Below, one piece after another: positions 1 through 4,702 of a DNA stretch of 32,950 nucleotides; within the stretch, counting starts at the first letter, position 1; every line of letters starts with the position of its first letter. Source of the DNA: a virus; IMG/VR virus record IMGVR_UViG_3300048929_000751, positions 1 through 32,950 of that record. One strand, written 5' to 3'. The position numbers and the translations under genes are program-made. The notes below the pieces were generated by a model that did not search any database, had not been told where the DNA came from, and saw only the letters and a list, made by a program, of their open reading frames with translations.

Positions 1-435
1 CTAGCGCACGAGCTCGTCGAATTTTTTAACGACGGTTGAATCGCAGTCCTTACCGGCGATAGTGAATACCTCACTGCCTGACTGGTTATCTATTAGAGAT
101 ATATCAAAAATCGAGTATCCCCCAAGGTCCCAGATGCAGGTGTCTACCTGTTGGTAAGCTACTTTCAGGGTATATCGTGTATTGAATGTGTCGTAGTGCT
201 GGAGTGAGGTTTCCTTACCCATTGTTCCTTCAATGATTGATGCGCCTTTGTAAACGCTCATTTTCCAACCATTTGACCTCAAAGATTGTTTGAGCCCCCC
301 GAGTAGACCGCTAGACCCGACGGGCACCGTTACGCTTTTAGCGGATGAATCTATCCGCTCGAAATTGTTTACGTTTTGGCTATTGCAGGCCGTCAGGGAC
401 GTCATCATTAAAACTATCGCCAGTAACCTGTTCAT
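1..435 (-). CDS. small putative lipoprotein (host side)
   Basis: The ORF is 144 residues from an ATG at 435; an upstream in-frame extension to 468 is less likely because a GAGGGA ribosome-binding site lies just before 435. The N-terminus is a short charged stretch, a hydrophobic core and a lipobox ending LTAC (Cys17), which is a type II signal peptide, so the mature protein should be lipid-anchored in the cell envelope. The rest is soluble, with two further cysteines (in VDTCIWDL and KDCDST) that could form a disulfide. I do not recognise the family. It lies outside the tRNA-Cys half-site at 850-896, so it is probably a chromosomal gene. The stop codon is the first three bases of the window. 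Confidence 0.7.
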   Translation of the reverse strand: MNRLLAIVLMMTSLTACNSQNVNNFERIDSSAKSVTVPVGSSGLLGGLKQSLRSNGWKMSVYKGASIIEGTMGKETSLQHYDTFNTRYTLKVAYQQVDTCIWDLGGYSIFDISLIDNQSGSEVFTIAGKDCDSTVVKKFDELVR

Positions 436-525
436 TGTTTCCCTCTCGATCATGAGGGCCGAAAGCACCCTGCTGCTAAGGCCTCGACCCAGTAGGACTA
501 GGCTTGGGCATTACCGGAATTTTTC

Positions 526-663
526 CTAGGCCTTGGGCTTCGGGGCTGGAGACATCAACAGCCCGCAGGTTGCGCACAAATAGGTACCATCCGGACCATC
601 TCTGAGCCCTGGATTGCCCCAGCATCGACAACCACGTCCTAACCTCGATTATCGCAGACTCAT
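526..663 (-). pseudogene. small zinc-ribbon protein broken by an ochre codon
   Basis: Reading from ATG at 663 gives MSLR, an in-frame TAA (649-651), then an open frame of 40 codons to TAG at 526. The open part contains a Cys-x-Cys pair (GRGCRCWGNPG) and, 19 residues further on, a Cys-x-x-Cys knuckle (LCATCGLL), which is the layout of a small zinc ribbon. No ATG, GTG or TTG lies between the ochre codon and the first cysteine, so the ribbon cannot be expressed without readthrough or another start. It precedes the lipoprotein gene on the same strand. It may be a decayed gene or an ORF whose true start I cannot see. Confidence 0.35.
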
Positions 664-758
664 GAGTACATCACCCGCCACCAAGATCGACAAAAAATGC
701 ACCTGACACAGGAAAACCGCTGCCAATTAAGGCTAGAGCCTCCTGTAAATCAGGCGGG

Positions 759-792
759 TTGCGGAAGCGATTCAAAAAATTGCGGAAGCGAT
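759..792. repeat. short direct repeat
   Basis: The 13-mer TTGCGGAAGCGAT occurs at 759-771 and again at 780-792, separated by eight mostly A bases. It lies in the otherwise empty 664-810 stretch between the broken zinc-ribbon gene and the tRNA terminator. No function is evident. Confidence 0.5.
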
Positions 793-812
793 CTTAAATC
801 GCAGACAATAAA

Positions 813-842
813 AAACCCCGTAGACGCTAATCTACGGGGTTT
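813..842 (-). terminator. rho-independent terminator downstream of tRNA-Cys
   Basis: The arms 813-824 and 831-842 pair perfectly over 12 bp around a 6-nt loop. Read on the minus strand, the hairpin is followed by a T-rich run. It starts 8 nt after the encoded CCA end of the tRNA-Cys half, so it is the original terminator of that tRNA transcript, now cut off from the tRNA promoter by the prophage. Confidence 0.8.
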
Positions 843-849
843 CTAAGAG

Positions 850-896
850 TGGAGGCCGAGGTCGGAATCGAACCGGCGTAGGCGGATTTGCAATCC
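850..896 (-). other. prophage attachment site: 3' half of a tRNA-Cys gene
   Basis: On the minus strand this is the anticodon loop with GCA (889-891), the 3' side of the anticodon stem, the variable loop, the T arm with GGTTCGATTCC, the acceptor 3' strand and an encoded CCA at 850. It matches the bacterial tRNA-Cys pattern up to the 5' side of the anticodon stem. Beyond about 896 the sequence becomes AT-rich and has no D arm or acceptor 5' strand, so this is not a complete tRNA gene. Duplication of the 3' half of a tRNA is the usual trace of a tyrosine integrase. The orientation puts host DNA to the left and the element to the right; the intact tRNA-Cys should lie past the right edge of the window. 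Confidence 0.85.
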
Positions 897-935
897 ACAA
901 ATTTCCAATTATTTATCAATAAGTTATCAAAAAAT

Positions 936-1124
936 CTATTCCGCATCGCCAAGATGTACACGTCGCTGGAGCCCTCTTGAATCGGGAGGCTTTATTTCGG
1001 TTGCGGAATGGATTTTCCAGCCCAGTGGATGGCTGGGCTTGGGTGTACCTGGTGCGTTTTCCGTTGTTCGTGGAGCTGGTGGTGGACGGGGTGACTTGTC
1101 GCCCTGGATGACAGCAGCCAGCAA
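936..1124 (-). CDS. doubtful small proline-rich ORF
   Basis: A 62-codon frame opens at a TTG directly after a stop and has no clear ribosome-binding site. It encodes a basic, proline-rich peptide (for example SPRPPPAPRTTENAPG) with no recognisable motif. An overlapping frame (916-1128) starts at ATG but looks less protein-like. It follows the 51-aa membrane-protein gene on the same strand and could be the remains of the last gene of that small cluster, cut short next to the attachment site. I cannot show that it is expressed. Confidence 0.2.
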   Translation of the reverse strand: MLAAVIQGDKSPRPPPAPRTTENAPGTPKPSHPLGWKIHSATEIKPPDSRGLQRRVHLGDAE

Positions 1125-1156
1125 TCATATGGGCGCGGTAGCCGCTATTTTCCTAC

Positions 1157-1312
1157 CTATTCGGGCTCTTGACCCGTACCTGGCGACTGGCGCTTTCTAT
1201 GGCAGAAAGTCACTAGAAAGAAAATGCAAACGAACACTACACACGACCAAAAAATCTTTCCGCCTGTGGGCATCTGCTCGACGCTCTTCCAGAACTCAAT
1301 TAATTTATCCAT
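1157..1312 (-). CDS. small single-helix membrane protein (51 aa)
   Basis: The start is ATG at 1312, 17 nt after the stop of the preceding gene (1330-1695) and after a purine-rich GGGAAAAGAG. An amphipathic N-terminal 17 residues (MDKLIEFWKSVEQMPTG) leads into a hydrophobic stretch of about 18 residues (IFWSCVVFVCIFFLVTF), then a basic tail HRKRQSPG. This fits a one-pass inner-membrane protein with a short cytoplasmic basic end, by the positive-inside rule. Three cysteines lie in or next to the helix. The family is not recognised. Very small membrane proteins after a slightly larger soluble gene occur in filamentous-phage modules and among prophage accessory genes; neither can be decided here. 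Confidence 0.5.
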   Translation of the reverse strand: MDKLIEFWKSVEQMPTGGKIFWSCVVFVCIFFLVTFCHRKRQSPGTGQEPE

Positions 1313-1329
1313 ATGCTCTTTTCCCGGAA

Positions 1330-1695
1330 CTATTCGTTTTCTTGTTCGCTAGGCACGGGACGCGCAAATGCACGATCCAGGACAGGTCGTGCTTCGTCGA
1401 TTGCAATGCCCAGATCTACAATGCTCTCGCTCTCTTCAGCACGAGCTTTGAACTCGCTGAGTTCGTTGAGCAAATCATCATTATTTCCAGCCGTGTACAG
1501 CGTGTGTGTCACACCTTCGAAAGTGCGCAGCACATTGTCCTTGGTGGCTGCGAAGTTACTCTCGCTACCGGACACCGTAGCCTGTGCCCAACCGGTAAGC
1601 GGGTGGTGCCTAACTTCAATTTTGTTGTCGAACATTCGGTTATACGAGCCTTGTACAAAGCCCTCGATGATCAATCCGTGGTTCTTTTCGTTCAT
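1330..1695 (-). CDS. hypothetical acidic protein (121 aa) of the att-proximal cluster
   Basis: The ATG at 1695 lies three bases after the stop of the upstream 57-aa ORF, with GGAG nine bases before it, so translation is probably coupled. The N-terminal half looks like a beta-rich fold (GLIIEGFVQGSYNRM, KIEVRHHPLTGWAQ). The C-terminal half is acidic and helical (LLNELSEFKARAEESES). There is no signal peptide or membrane segment. I do not recognise the family. Its position ahead of a tiny membrane-protein gene recalls the single-strand-binding protein slot of filamentous phages, but no motif supports that. The overlapping plus-strand ORF (1039-1704) was judged a shadow because its translation is not protein-like. 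Confidence 0.55.
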   Translation of the reverse strand: MNEKNHGLIIEGFVQGSYNRMFDNKIEVRHHPLTGWAQATVSGSESNFAATKDNVLRTFEGVTHTLYTAGNNDDLLNELSEFKARAEESESIVDLGIAIDEARPVLDRAFARPVPSEQENE

Positions 1696-1698
1696 GCG

Positions 1699-1872
1699 TC
1701 ATGACTCCGTTGCATTACGGACGCGAAAACCGTGTCCCTTTACGTCCTCAGCCCTAGTTTTTGGCCAGGGCTTGGGGTGCAGTAGCTGATCGACTTTTCC
1801 TATCAATTCACAGTCGCGGCAAGGCGTGAGAACGTCAGCGCCTCTCAGGATTCGTAGACCGTCACATCGCAC
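1699..1872 (-). CDS. small Cys-x-x-Cys protein (57 aa)
   Basis: The frame is open from GTG at 1872 to TGA at 1699, three bases before the next gene. Near the N-terminus it has PCRDCELIGKVDQLL, a single CxxC knuckle with one more Cys at position 3, then a basic C-terminal half (HPKPWPKTRAEDVKGHGFR). The start overlaps the last 28 nt of the double-amber gene upstream, and there is no good Shine-Dalgarno sequence, so it may depend on translational coupling. If so, the amber codons upstream would affect it. The family is not recognised. The call rests on frame length, protein-like composition and tight packing with its neighbours. Confidence 0.4.
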   Translation of the reverse strand: MRCDGLRILRGADVLTPCRDCELIGKVDQLLHPKPWPKTRAEDVKGHGFRVRNATES

Positions 1873-2036
1873 TCACGCGGCATGCCCCATTGCCCGTCAT
1901 TAGGCAGCCGTCCCTCCTCCGTAGTGGTCAGCTCGTTTTCGTAGAACACCCACTACCCGGCTGGATCGAGGCCGCACCAGTTCGCCCAGGAGGGCTATGA
2001 TTGAACTGGTGGAGCAATGTTGGTGCGCGTGTTCAT
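1845..2036 (-). pseudogene. small gene interrupted by two in-frame amber codons
   Basis: From ATG at 2036, after AGGA at a seven-base spacing, a 64-codon frame runs to TGA at 1845. Codons 14 (1995-1997) and 28 (1953-1955) are both TAG. The three segments read as one plausible protein: MNTRTNIAPPVQS, then PSWANWCGLDPAG, then a 35-residue part starting WVFYENELTTTEEG and containing DGQWGMPRECDV. A C-to-T change in a Gln CAG codon would explain each amber, and Gln fits the context (AG-Q-WVF). The simplest reading is a gene inactivated by two transitions. Amber suppression or recoding is the less likely alternative. It overlaps the 57-aa ORF downstream by 28 nt. Confidence 0.5.
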
Positions 2037-2154
2037 CTGACATTCCTGGGTTAAATCAGTACGGTAGTGAAGCACGTGGGAACACCTGATTTTGAGCCAA
2101 GCGAGTCAGTTCGAATTTGTGGCGGCAACCCAATAGGTCTTGTAAGACAGCCCA

Positions 2155-3051
2155 TCAACGCGAACTCACATAGATAAGGGCCTGCACTGACCACGTCTTC
2201 TGCCCCTGCGGCAATATCGGCCCATCGGTAAACCGAAAATCTTCGAACCTCTGCAATACGGCCTGGTCGACGGCGTTATCGTTTGAACTGTTCACGATGG
2301 ACAGCCGGGGCACGAGAGAACCCAGAATATATTCCAGTTTCACTGTGACCTCCTTTCCCACCGGCCCAGGCTTGAGGGCCCCTGACACACTTTCCTGAAC
2401 ACGCGATATTTTGCTCTGAATCCTGCCCTCCGTCGTCCCAATCCAGATCTTGTTGTAGCGCTGTTCTTGTTCTGCGGTTAGTTTGACTCCTCGGCCGAGA
2501 AGCCGCTGAATTCCGTCCCATTCGTCACCAAAACTGGCACGGGTTGCCTTCAAGTAAAGCGTCATGGCGCCCTCGAGATCCTGCTGACCGCCCTTGCCTT
2601 CTTCCATCAGCTTGGCCAATCTGGCCTCAGCACTGTTGCTGTTACCACCGGCGGCTGCACGCAGGTATAACCGCCTGGCCTTCTGATAATCCGGGGGCCC
2701 GTCGAGACCACTCTCGGCAAGCTTGCCGAGGAGGACATAGGCCCGCTCATCGACATCAGCCGCTGACTGGTAAAGGGTCTTTGCCTTCGCAATGTCTTGG
2801 GGGACACTACGACCGTTTTCATAAAGGTCGCCGAGCAGCATCTTGCACATCGAGTCTCCACTCTCGCTGAGGGCCAGGATGTATTCGAGTTGCTCGCGCG
2901 TCACTGAGCCATCATTTGGAGAGACCCAGCAACGCAAGCCGAAGAGGGGATCATCCTGGGGGATGCCTGCGGGAACGTTGACGCTCGGTACTGGCTCTGC
3001 TGAACAGGCGGTTAGTAATACGCAACACAATGATAAAAACACAATTCGCAT
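2155..3051 (-). CDS. Sel1-like repeat lipoprotein with a TonB-C-like end
   Basis: The start is ATG at 3051, after GAGGAAG; the frame extends upstream to 3132 without a ribosome-binding site. The 298-aa product begins with a lipoprotein signal (MRIVFLSLCCVLLTAC, Cys16). Residues of roughly 60-175 form three to four Sel1-type helical repeats (for example MLLGDLYENGRSVPQDIAKA, YLRAAAGGNSNSAEARLAKL), a fold that usually mediates protein-protein contacts. The last 65 residues (VTVKLEYILGSLVPRL to VQALIYV) resemble the alpha/beta C-terminal domain of TonB-type proteins. The protein should be lipid-anchored and periplasmic. It sits alone in the accessory arm, so it is probably cargo rather than a virion gene. 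The Sel1 call is firm; the TonB-C-like domain is tentative. Confidence 0.7.
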   Translation of the reverse strand: MRIVFLSLCCVLLTACSAEPVPSVNVPAGIPQDDPLFGLRCWVSPNDGSVTREQLEYILALSESGDSMCKMLLGDLYENGRSVPQDIAKAKTLYQSAADVDERAYVLLGKLAESGLDGPPDYQKARRLYLRAAAGGNSNSAEARLAKLMEEGKGGQQDLEGAMTLYLKATRASFGDEWDGIQRLLGRGVKLTAEQEQRYNKIWIGTTEGRIQSKISRVQESVSGALKPGPVGKEVTVKLEYILGSLVPRLSIVNSSNDNAVDQAVLQRFEDFRFTDGPILPQGQKTWSVQALIYVSSR

Positions 3052-3127
3052 GATTGCTTCCTCCGTCACTACTCGATCATAAACACAGGCACATCCATCG
3101 CGTCGGCAATCATCAGGGTTGGTGCCA

Positions 3128-3267
3128 AACAAAATATTCTGACACTGCGGCCCACATACACTGGCGCCCTAAGAGCTGCGACTGGGGCCGCGTAAAAAAA
3201 CAAATTCTGACAATCCTCCCCCCCTGGCCACCAATCTACCTCCCATGCTCGAAAAAAGATTTTGACA
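3128..3267 (-). repeat. three dispersed copies of a TGTC 17-bp motif (minus strand)
   Basis: On the minus strand, 17-mers start at 3267 (TGTCAAAATCTTTTTTC), 3212 (TGTCAGAATTTGTTTTT) and 3144 (TGTCAGAATATTTTGTT). The last matches a copy in the plus-strand array at 3479-3495 in 16 of 17 bases. The first shares its leading 11 bases, TGTCAAAATCT, with the copy at 3459. The spacings are 55 and 68 bp. All lie upstream of the Sel1 lipoprotein gene. Three spaced sites at one end and three close-packed at the other is the pattern of Tn7- or Mu-type transposase-binding ends. Confidence 0.65.
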
Positions 3268-3458
3268 CTCCGGCGCTTGAAGCTGTGATTGGCGGTGCGG
3301 ATTTCGGCGGTTCAAAAAAGGTCTAGGAAACTATTTGCAACTGAGCTAGCACCCAAAGCAGCGAGTTAAGCGGTGTTGATGCTGGTGGTCGTCGAAATCG
3401 CTTAACTGCCGGTTTCATACGAACCCTCCTACCCCAGCAAATCCGGGCTTCCGCCTAG
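3268..3458. other. non-coding spacer between the two TGTC arrays
   Basis: These 191 bases carry no convincing ORF. The only structure seen is a short inverted repeat, GTTAAGCG (3365 region) against CGCTTAAC (about 3400). If the flanking arrays are transposon ends, this is DNA outside both ends. The bases adjoining the two TGT termini (CTCCG on the left, CCTAG on the right) are not a matching target duplication. Confidence 0.4.
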
Positions 3459-3515
3459 TGTCAAAATCTATTGTCAGATGTCAGAATATTTTGTCTGGTG
3501 TCAAAATATTTTGTC
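3459..3515 (+). repeat. three tandem copies of the TGTC 17-bp motif, 20-bp period
   Basis: Copies start at 3459 (TGTCAAAATCTATTGTC), 3479 (TGTCAGAATATTTTGTC) and 3499 (TGTCAAAATATTTTGTC), separated by exactly three bases each (AGA, TGG). The 20-bp pitch, close to two helical turns, would place bound proteins on one face of the DNA. The motif has a palindromic core CAAAATATTTTG, but its outer bases (TGT and TC) are not symmetric, so it has a direction. The remaining 61 bases up to the next gene hold nothing I recognise. Confidence 0.75.
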
Positions 3516-3576
3516 AAAAACCACCAACGTGCATGCTTGTCGGCGTAGCCGCTTTAACCTTTAGGCCCATTTCCCT

Positions 3577-3798
3577 TCATTCATCAGGTTTGCGCGTTTC
3601 GAGGTAATAGCGCCGATCTGTGCGCGGGTCTTTGACATACACCGAGAAATACATCACCCACGTCACCACCGATATCACAAAGGCGATCCACCCGCCGGCA
3701 TATCCCAGCGCCATGTAGATAAGCAAACATGCTATGACGTAAAGCAATGTCACCGTCAGGGAGCGCTTAAAAGCCCAACTTAAATAGTCAAGGTCCAT
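3577..3798 (-). CDS. small two-helix membrane protein (73 aa)
   Basis: The ATG at 3798 follows AGGGAA. After MDLDYLSWAFKRS there are two hydrophobic segments, LTVTLLYVIACLLIYMALGY and WIAFVISVVTWVMYFSVYV, joined by a very short Gly-Gly turn. A charged tail with KDPRTDRRYYLETRKPDE follows. Both termini are predicted to be cytoplasmic from the charges. The family is not recognised. It stands between the TGTC arrays and the recombinase gene on the same strand, with 100 bp of non-coding DNA after the recombinase stop. Holin-like size and topology were considered, but a better holin candidate lies at 27382-27726. Confidence 0.6.
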   Translation of the reverse strand: MDLDYLSWAFKRSLTVTLLYVIACLLIYMALGYAGGWIAFVISVVTWVMYFSVYVKDPRTDRRYYLETRKPDE

Positions 3799-3901
3799 GA
3801 TTTCCCTGCTGTCTCAGCCCAGCAGCTTTACAGCTAGCGCTGGGAGCAGATGTCAAACGATTGCCGTGCAAAGCTGGATCCAATCAACAGTAATGATGTC
3901 T

Positions 3902-4582
3902 CTATGCCAGTGCAACCTCGAATGCATGTCGAATTGTCGCTTGGTCGACTGTCAAGTAAGGCTTGCTGTGATCGATACAGGAATGACCGAGTATGGTCTG
4001 CACCGTCTCAACATCGCCTGTTGCCGCCAGTACCTTAGCCGCCAGGGAACGCCTGCCGCTGTGCGACGATCCCTGCTTGATACCGGCCTGCCGGTATAGC
4101 CTGCTGATGGTCTGCTGGAGCGAATCACAGGCACGGTAAACTTCTGGCCCACTATCCAGCTCGCGGTGCTTGAACGCTAGTTCAAAGGCTTGGCCCTTGT
4201 GCGTAGTGACCAGTTTTGAACATGGTCGAAAGCCTCGGTACTCCTCTGCACCAGAAAGCCCCCATCGACGCTGGTGCCTAACCTCCAACCACGCTTCGAG
4301 CGCGGCCAGGCATCGGGCATGTGTCAGATACACATTGCGAGGTCTACAGCCCTTGGTAATGTCTGCCCGCAAGTACACCTCAGGCTTGATGGCACCACTC
4401 GGATATAGCACGTCGGCCACCTCCAGCAAGGCCAGCTCGGTGACGCGAATGCCAGTGGTGTGTGTGAGCCACAAAAGCATCACATCACGTTCCGGCAGAC
4501 GGCCAGTAACGGATGCAACGCGTATCAGGTGCTTGAATTGCCCAGGGCGAAGGGATGTTGCACGTCGGATGGGGGTAGTCAT
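3902..4582 (-). CDS. short tyrosine recombinase/integrase, catalytic domain only
   Basis: The 226-aa product carries the full tyrosine-recombinase active site: Arg46 in TTGIRVTELALLEV, Lys77 after the beta turn, His174-x-x-Arg177 in SSHSGRRSLA, His200 in TILGHS and Tyr209 in SKPYLTV. It would cut and rejoin DNA through a covalent 3'-phosphotyrosine. Most phage integrases have 300-450 residues, with an arm-binding domain and a core-binding SAM-like domain before this part. Here only about 30 residues precede the catalytic fold, so the N-terminal DNA-binding domains are missing. No upstream frame would restore them. It may act with a partner or be a stand-alone short recombinase. It is not certain that it mediates tRNA-Cys integration; another integrase may lie beyond the window. 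An inverted repeat lies just upstream. Confidence 0.85.
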   Translation of the reverse strand: MTTPIRRATSLRPGQFKHLIRVASVTGRLPERDVMLLWLTHTTGIRVTELALLEVADVLYPSGAIKPEVYLRADITKGCRPRNVYLTHARCLAALEAWLEVRHQRRWGLSGAEEYRGFRPCSKLVTTHKGQAFELAFKHRELDSGPEVYRACDSLQQTISRLYRQAGIKQGSSHSGRRSLAAKVLAATGDVETVQTILGHSCIDHSKPYLTVDQATIRHAFEVALA

Positions 4583-4587
4583 GAGGG

Positions 4588-4632
4588 CTCTCTGTCAGGA
4601 TTGATGACGAATCGCAAACGATCCTGAGAGAG
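4588..4632. repeat. imperfect inverted repeat before the recombinase gene
   Basis: CTCTC-TG-TCAGGAT (4588-4601) faces ATCCTGA-GAGAG (4621-4632): 12 paired bases with a 2-nt bulge around a 19-nt centre. It begins six bases upstream of the recombinase start, so it may be an operator for that gene or a recombinase-binding site. No T run follows, so it is not a terminator. The remaining bases up to the methylase stop at 4703 are empty. Confidence 0.5.
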
Positions 4633-4702
4633 TTGGTAGCGGGCCTCCTGAATAGCTTACATGCCCACGTGCCCTGGTGTTCACGGAAAATGCTAGCGAC
4701 AC

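Follow-up and report, generated by a model that had tools for sequence, protein, structure and literature searches.

Tn7-like ends are well known, as are mini-Tn7 tools. In Tn7 of Escherichia coli three spaced TnsB sites at the left end are matched by packed sites, four in number, at the right end, the tips read 5'-TGTGGG, the right tip lies near the stop codon of glmS and insertion is accompanied by a 5-bp duplication. The 404-bp unit described here has the same three spaced left sites and packed right sites, but its tips begin 5'-TGGT and its right end holds three sites, and the duplication is paralleled in its relatives. Miniature elements that are mobilised in trans are known as MITEs or TIMEs (e.g. 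the Tn3-derived TIMEs), and these resemble the unit in being short and transposase-less with ends that match an autonomous family. They are, however, single-transposase elements, whereas the ends of the unit hold several sites each and are those of a heteromeric TnsA/TnsB system. Laboratory mini-Tn7 and VchCAST mini-transposons have minimal ends of nearly equal length to those of the unit, carry no transposase and are moved in trans (PMC10201428), but they are engineered and the unit is natural. In their survey of Tn7-like elements Benler et al. took tnsB as the starting point and searched outward from it for the ends (PMC8649781), so that elements consisting of ends only are invisible to such a scan. 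A search of the open-licence literature turned up no natural Tn7-like element described as miniature or non-autonomous, which is weak evidence as most subscription journals lay outside its scope.

The window, i.e. the whole stretch of DNA analysed (32,950 bp), is a linear IMG/VR record made up of a tailed prophage, with genes for terminase, portal and sheath, and some 4.7 kb of accessory DNA on its left. We consider it quite probable, from sequence comparison, that positions 3120-3523 are a miniature non-autonomous, MITE-like element of the Tn7 family, which would have originated by internal deletion and been mobilised in trans as a unit. The features are as follows.

1794-3119, no strand: DNA flanking on the left, including the Sel1 lipoprotein gene (99.8% identity to Pseudomonas genome G031, 99.7% to P. 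veronii)
3115-3119, no strand: left flank AGGGT (target side), compared with the right flank CCAAC at 3524-3528
3120-3523, no strand: putative miniature element of Tn7-like type without tns genes, from tip to tip (from the P. costantinii tips and the flank breaks)
3120-3267, plus strand: left end, with tip 5'-TGGTGCCAAACAAAAT and three spaced sites of TnsB type (from similarity to P. costantinii and genome G251)
3120-3144, minus strand: left-end site 1 (terminal), TGTC at 3144 (17-mer and weight matrix)
3193-3212, minus strand: left-end site 2, the most degenerate, TGTC at 3212 (weight matrix)
3248-3267, minus strand: left-end site 3 (innermost), TGTC at 3267 (17-mer and weight matrix)
3268-3458, no strand: interior, 191 bp, no gene
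3459-3523, minus strand: right end, with its tip 5'-TGGTTTTTGACAAAAT at 3523 and three packed sites of TnsB type at 20-bp pitch
3459-3478, plus strand: right-end site 3 (innermost), TGTC at 3459 (17-mer and weight matrix)
3479-3498, plus strand: right-end site 2, TGTC at 3479 (17-mer and weight matrix)
3499-3523, plus strand: right-end site 1 (terminal), TGTC at 3499 (17-mer and weight matrix)

The repeat sites

A sequence-only reading of this DNA had reported six directional sites between 3128 and 3515, starting at 3144, 3212 and 3267 on the minus strand and at 3459, 3479 and 3499 on the plus strand, and the positions, the strands and the exact 20-bp pitch of the plus-strand trio were all borne out; the sites are about 20 bp long and the rest of the window has none. 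The 17-mer TGTCARAATATTTTGTC gave six matches in the window with ≤3 mismatches against 0.07 expected from shuffles, two of the six being a single near-palindromic site read both ways; the site at 3212, with four mismatches, lies beyond that limit. A weight matrix trained on sites from other genomes only, and then run on the window, placed all six sites within the top seven places, with scores of 18.0-29.7, the maximum in 60 random windows being 20.6. The seventh place (20.6, 3516, minus strand) is the 3499 site read in reverse. In 399 Pseudomonas genomes the exact tip pattern was met seven times, and the same pattern reversed, as a control, not once.

A number of other matches were discarded. 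Ten viral contigs with a single-site match each held one isolated copy and no array, and these were taken as chance, while in 14 viral contigs with a tip-pattern match there was no array around the matches. A search of a phage collection for the sites gave no match, and a match in genome G130 was judged to be due to chance, being inside a gene and only 32 bp long, with no site found.

The reference element and the direction of the ends

When bacterial genomes were scanned for two packed units, one locus was returned, in Pseudomonas costantinii, where three packed sites with 89% identity over 65 bp to window positions 3459-3523 form a right end lying between glmS and a tnsA-tnsB-tnsC operon. 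Two tnsD/tniQ genes follow tnsABC, and with the spaced left-end sites at the far end the complete Tn7-like transposon measures 20.5 kb. A distance of 25 bp separates its right tip from the stop codon of glmS (attTn7), as in Tn7, both outer flanks read AGTGG, a perfect 5-bp target duplication, and its TnsB matches the E. coli Tn7 TnsB (PDB 7pik) with an E value of 7e-92. Window-type right ends also adjoin tnsA and tnsB beside glmS in genomes G540, G604, G579 and G576 and lie next to tnsA/tnsB in G464, and right ends of a sister specificity are placed likewise in many more genomes. The suggestion that the three spread and three packed sites are TnsB-binding-type ends of the Tn7 kind is thus supported both by P. 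costantinii, whose tnsABCD element occupies attTn7, and by the further genomes in which the same right end accompanies tnsA/tnsB.

In P. costantinii the body of the element is on the TGTC side of the sites and the 5-bp duplication directly adjoins them on the ...TTTTTGACA side, the tips being 5'-TGGTGCC(A/G)AACAAAAT on the left and 5'-TGGTTTTTGACAAWAW on the right. Judged by this element, TGTC is the inner side of each site and the tips, 5'-TGGT..., are on the opposite side of each array. The tips and the duplication together place the tips of the window unit at 3120 and 3523, with its ends directed inward.

Anatomy of the 404-bp unit

The unit has a left end of 148 bp, an interior of 191 bp and a right end of 65 bp, in which ~20-bp TnsB-type sites form asymmetric inverted arrays, spaced on the left and packed on the right. 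For comparison, a VchCAST mini-transposon has a left end of 147 bp and a right end of 57 bp, where three sites at the left and two at the right suffice (PMC10201428); the sizes in the window, 148 bp with three sites and 65 bp with three sites, agree with these. Its tips are homologous to those that bracket tnsABC and tnsD in P. costantinii, the left tip being identical at 24 of 26 bases, and the left end is 70% identical to that of G251 from the tip to the inner site. Of the interior, 3268-3332 is common to the P. veronii plasmid NZ_CP142042.1 and 3333-3458 is unique. The P. costantinii transposon is thus like the unit in its tips, TGGTGCC on the left and TGGTTTTTGACA on the right, and in its asymmetric site layout, but unlike it in being 20.5 kb long and in having tnsABC, two tnsD/tniQ genes, cargo, a glmS site and a duplication.

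Neither Tns homology nor decayed tns coding was detected by tblastn in the window or in the interior of the element. The gene set of an autonomous Tn7-like element (TnsA, TnsB, TnsC, TniQ/TnsD) is therefore absent from the window and the unit is non-autonomous at most. No glmS adjoins the window copy. Since gene set, duplication and attTn7 site were each sought at this copy and not found, we class the unit with MITE-like elements of the Tn7 family rather than with Tn7-like transposons in the strict sense; at 404 bp it falls below ~0.8 kb, has no transposase and has both ends of an autonomous family.

Boundaries and flanks

The 99.8% match of G031, which is element-free here, to positions 1794-3119 ends exactly at 3119, one base before the tip; G031 reads AGGGT up to the break and CGATCAG past it, and the uninserted left target as found in G031 is AGGGTCGATCAGC. 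On the other side, BLAST similarity of the right end to P. costantinii and G298 stops at 3523-3524, and that to G540, G579, G576, G464 and G525 at 3523. The right flank carries CCAACGTGCATGC, and as positions 3524-3900 were not found in 399 Pseudomonas genomes the right half of the uninserted site is not shown. Comparison with an empty site, which had been proposed as a check, therefore succeeded for the left flank but not for the right, and the 5-bp duplications proposed along with it were found in P. costantinii, in G251 and, with one extra T, in G184 but not at the window copy, where AGGGT on the left faces CCAAC on the right. As the duplication is missing, one flank, the right, was probably exchanged after insertion; a deletion, or a recombination event involving two units of this kind, could have done this. 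Sequence comparison establishes the ends, the tips, their homology to autonomous elements and the exact left-flank boundary, but with AGGGT opposite CCAAC it does not demonstrate insertion at this locus as a 404-bp unit. Insertion with a 5-bp duplication is evident, on the same kind of comparison, for the sibling in G251 and not for the window copy.

Relatives with and without tns genes

The sibling in G251 (L059 6589-7240) is 652 bp long, has CTCGG duplicated on both sides and carries no tns gene, its one ORF being of 111 aa. A P. syringae plasmid provides a related, diverged uninserted site, which aligns through the junction and has one copy of the duplicated bases. The 111-aa ORF has ~79% DNA identity to a cassette gene of the P. 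veronii plasmid NZ_CP142043.1, and cassette capture is possible.

A still smaller miniature, of 227 bp and of the sister specificity, occurs tip to tip at unrelated loci in G031 and in a P. rhodesiae plasmid, the copies being 92.5% identical; the P. rhodesiae plasmid locus is also present in genome G106. Both copies are without a target duplication, which the current model does not explain. G031 carries in addition an autonomous element with a full tns operon and ends matching those of the 227-bp unit, its TnsB being 54% identical to that of P. costantinii. In G031 (L096 16817-17100), moreover, the right end of a Tn7-like element is followed 14 bp on by the left end of the next, i.e. the elements are in tandem.

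At the other end of the size range, genome G184 (L088 4829 to L090 3306) carries at attTn7 an island of 17.5 kb that lacks tns genes and is bounded by Tn7-like ends, with AGTGT on both sides and one extra T at the left. The genes of the island are biosynthetic (decarboxylase, radical SAM, P450, RND). In G247 a right end is present at attTn7, and no TnsB homologue was found in the genome of either G184 or G247. The recurrence of paired arrays flanking mobile DNA in other genomes, which the sequence-only reading had called for, was looked for and found; recurrence at more than one locus is seen for the 227-bp sister unit, and the 404-bp unit was seen once.

Alternative readings

The P. veronii plasmid NZ_CP142042.1 shares with the window the left tip, its outer flank and the left 213 bp of the unit, after which it continues into ICE genes, and a two-site right end lies 8 kb off, across a block of cassette genes that includes Sel1, in the opposite direction. 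A search for a second copy of the 404-bp unit found none, the plasmid search giving only this left half in P. veronii. To judge from this layout, such ends get separated and rejoined, and the pairing of ends by chance or recombination is for that reason the main rival to a miniature element. On this reading the left end of one Tn7-like element and the right end of another, both of them remnants, would have been brought together by recombination or deletion, and the unit would never have transposed as a whole. Such an origin fits the lack of a target duplication at the window copy, the P. veronii identity that covers the left 213 bp only and ends inside the element, and the neighbouring right and left ends 14 bp apart in G031, from which it follows that end-to-end reshuffling does occur. 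We nevertheless think it unlikely, as the left and right ends face inward, the whole is of minimal Tn7-type size with full site sets on both sides, the 652-bp relative of the same build has both a duplication and a related uninserted site, and the 227-bp unit repeats tip to tip at two loci.

The remaining possibilities fare much worse. In the sequence-only reading the ends faced away from each other, the 191-bp gap being the space between two elements whose bodies lay outside it and carried the Sel1 gene, the membrane protein gene and the recombinase gene. The direction of the TGTC motif agrees with this, and in P. veronii arrays of both kinds bracket the 8 kb of cassette genes, Sel1 included, in that sense, but in P. 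costantinii the TGTC side faces tnsA, and the tip and the adjoining duplication are found on the far side. The duplications of P. costantinii, G251 and G184 contradict this reading, genome-to-genome identity ends precisely at 3119 and at 3523-3524, and bodies outside the gap are thus very improbable: the gap is the interior of one unit and, given the orientation in P. costantinii, all three genes are flanking DNA. The sites might instead be arm-type sites of a phage or cassette tyrosine integrase, in an attP-like region serving the 226-aa recombinase encoded at 3902-4582, since an integrase gene is nearby and attP regions too have clustered and spread arm sites. This seems hardly credible when the same arrays adjoin tnsA and glmS in many genomes, and when relatives of the integrase in plasmid pA506 and in G031 (L057) adjoin cassettes without these arrays. 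Directional repeats at 20-bp pitch would also suit operators or iterons of a regulator or replicon, an option that the sequence-only reading had left standing and to which we attach next to no weight: the sites keep a conserved position at transposon tips with target duplications outside them, as the tips and duplication of P. costantinii make plain, and no regulator or replication gene travels with the array.

Origin and wider significance

A miniature Tn7-family element at 3120-3523 would most likely derive from a Tn7-like transposon that targeted glmS, as the P. costantinii type does, and that underwent an internal deletion; a full-length relative supplying TnsAB(C) and a target selector in trans would have moved it. 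Mobilisation of the 404-bp unit in trans is probably a past event and present mobility is not implied; of the host's DNA, the search for Tns homology covered this 33-kb contig. The relatives of the same build indicate that such units have been inserted and retained in gene-cassette regions of Pseudomonas plasmids and islands. A broader proposal, which in our estimate could equally well prove right or wrong, is that the accessory regions of Pseudomonas hold a population of miniature or tns-less Tn7-family elements, of ~0.2-17 kb, that are mobilised in trans by resident glmS-targeting transposons, insert in plasmid and island cassette arrays and escape surveys in which tnsB is the starting point. 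If this is true, the TnsABCD of one element can move DNA without any tns gene, and attTn7 cargo islands without transposition genes would be accounted for. Natural miniatures offer a direct test of end specificity and of cross-mobilisation among sister Tn7-like families, and they also define minimal natural ends.

The cassette-like region

Positions 1-4650 of the window resemble a gene-cassette array, with small same-strand genes, a recurring intergenic repeat (near 1020-1160 and at 1741-1782) and the 226-aa tyrosine recombinase (integrase, 3902-4582, minus strand). Just to the left of the cassettes, positions 850-900 resemble the 3' part of a tRNA-Cys gene on the minus strand; ARAGORN found no tRNA there, and the sequence is possibly an integration scar. 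The intergenic repeat recurs in dozens of Pseudomonas plasmids, the P. fluorescens plasmid pA506 has the same set of rulB, integrase, small ORFs and repeats, and the cassette set of the window resembles the integron-like elements described in PMC4542609.
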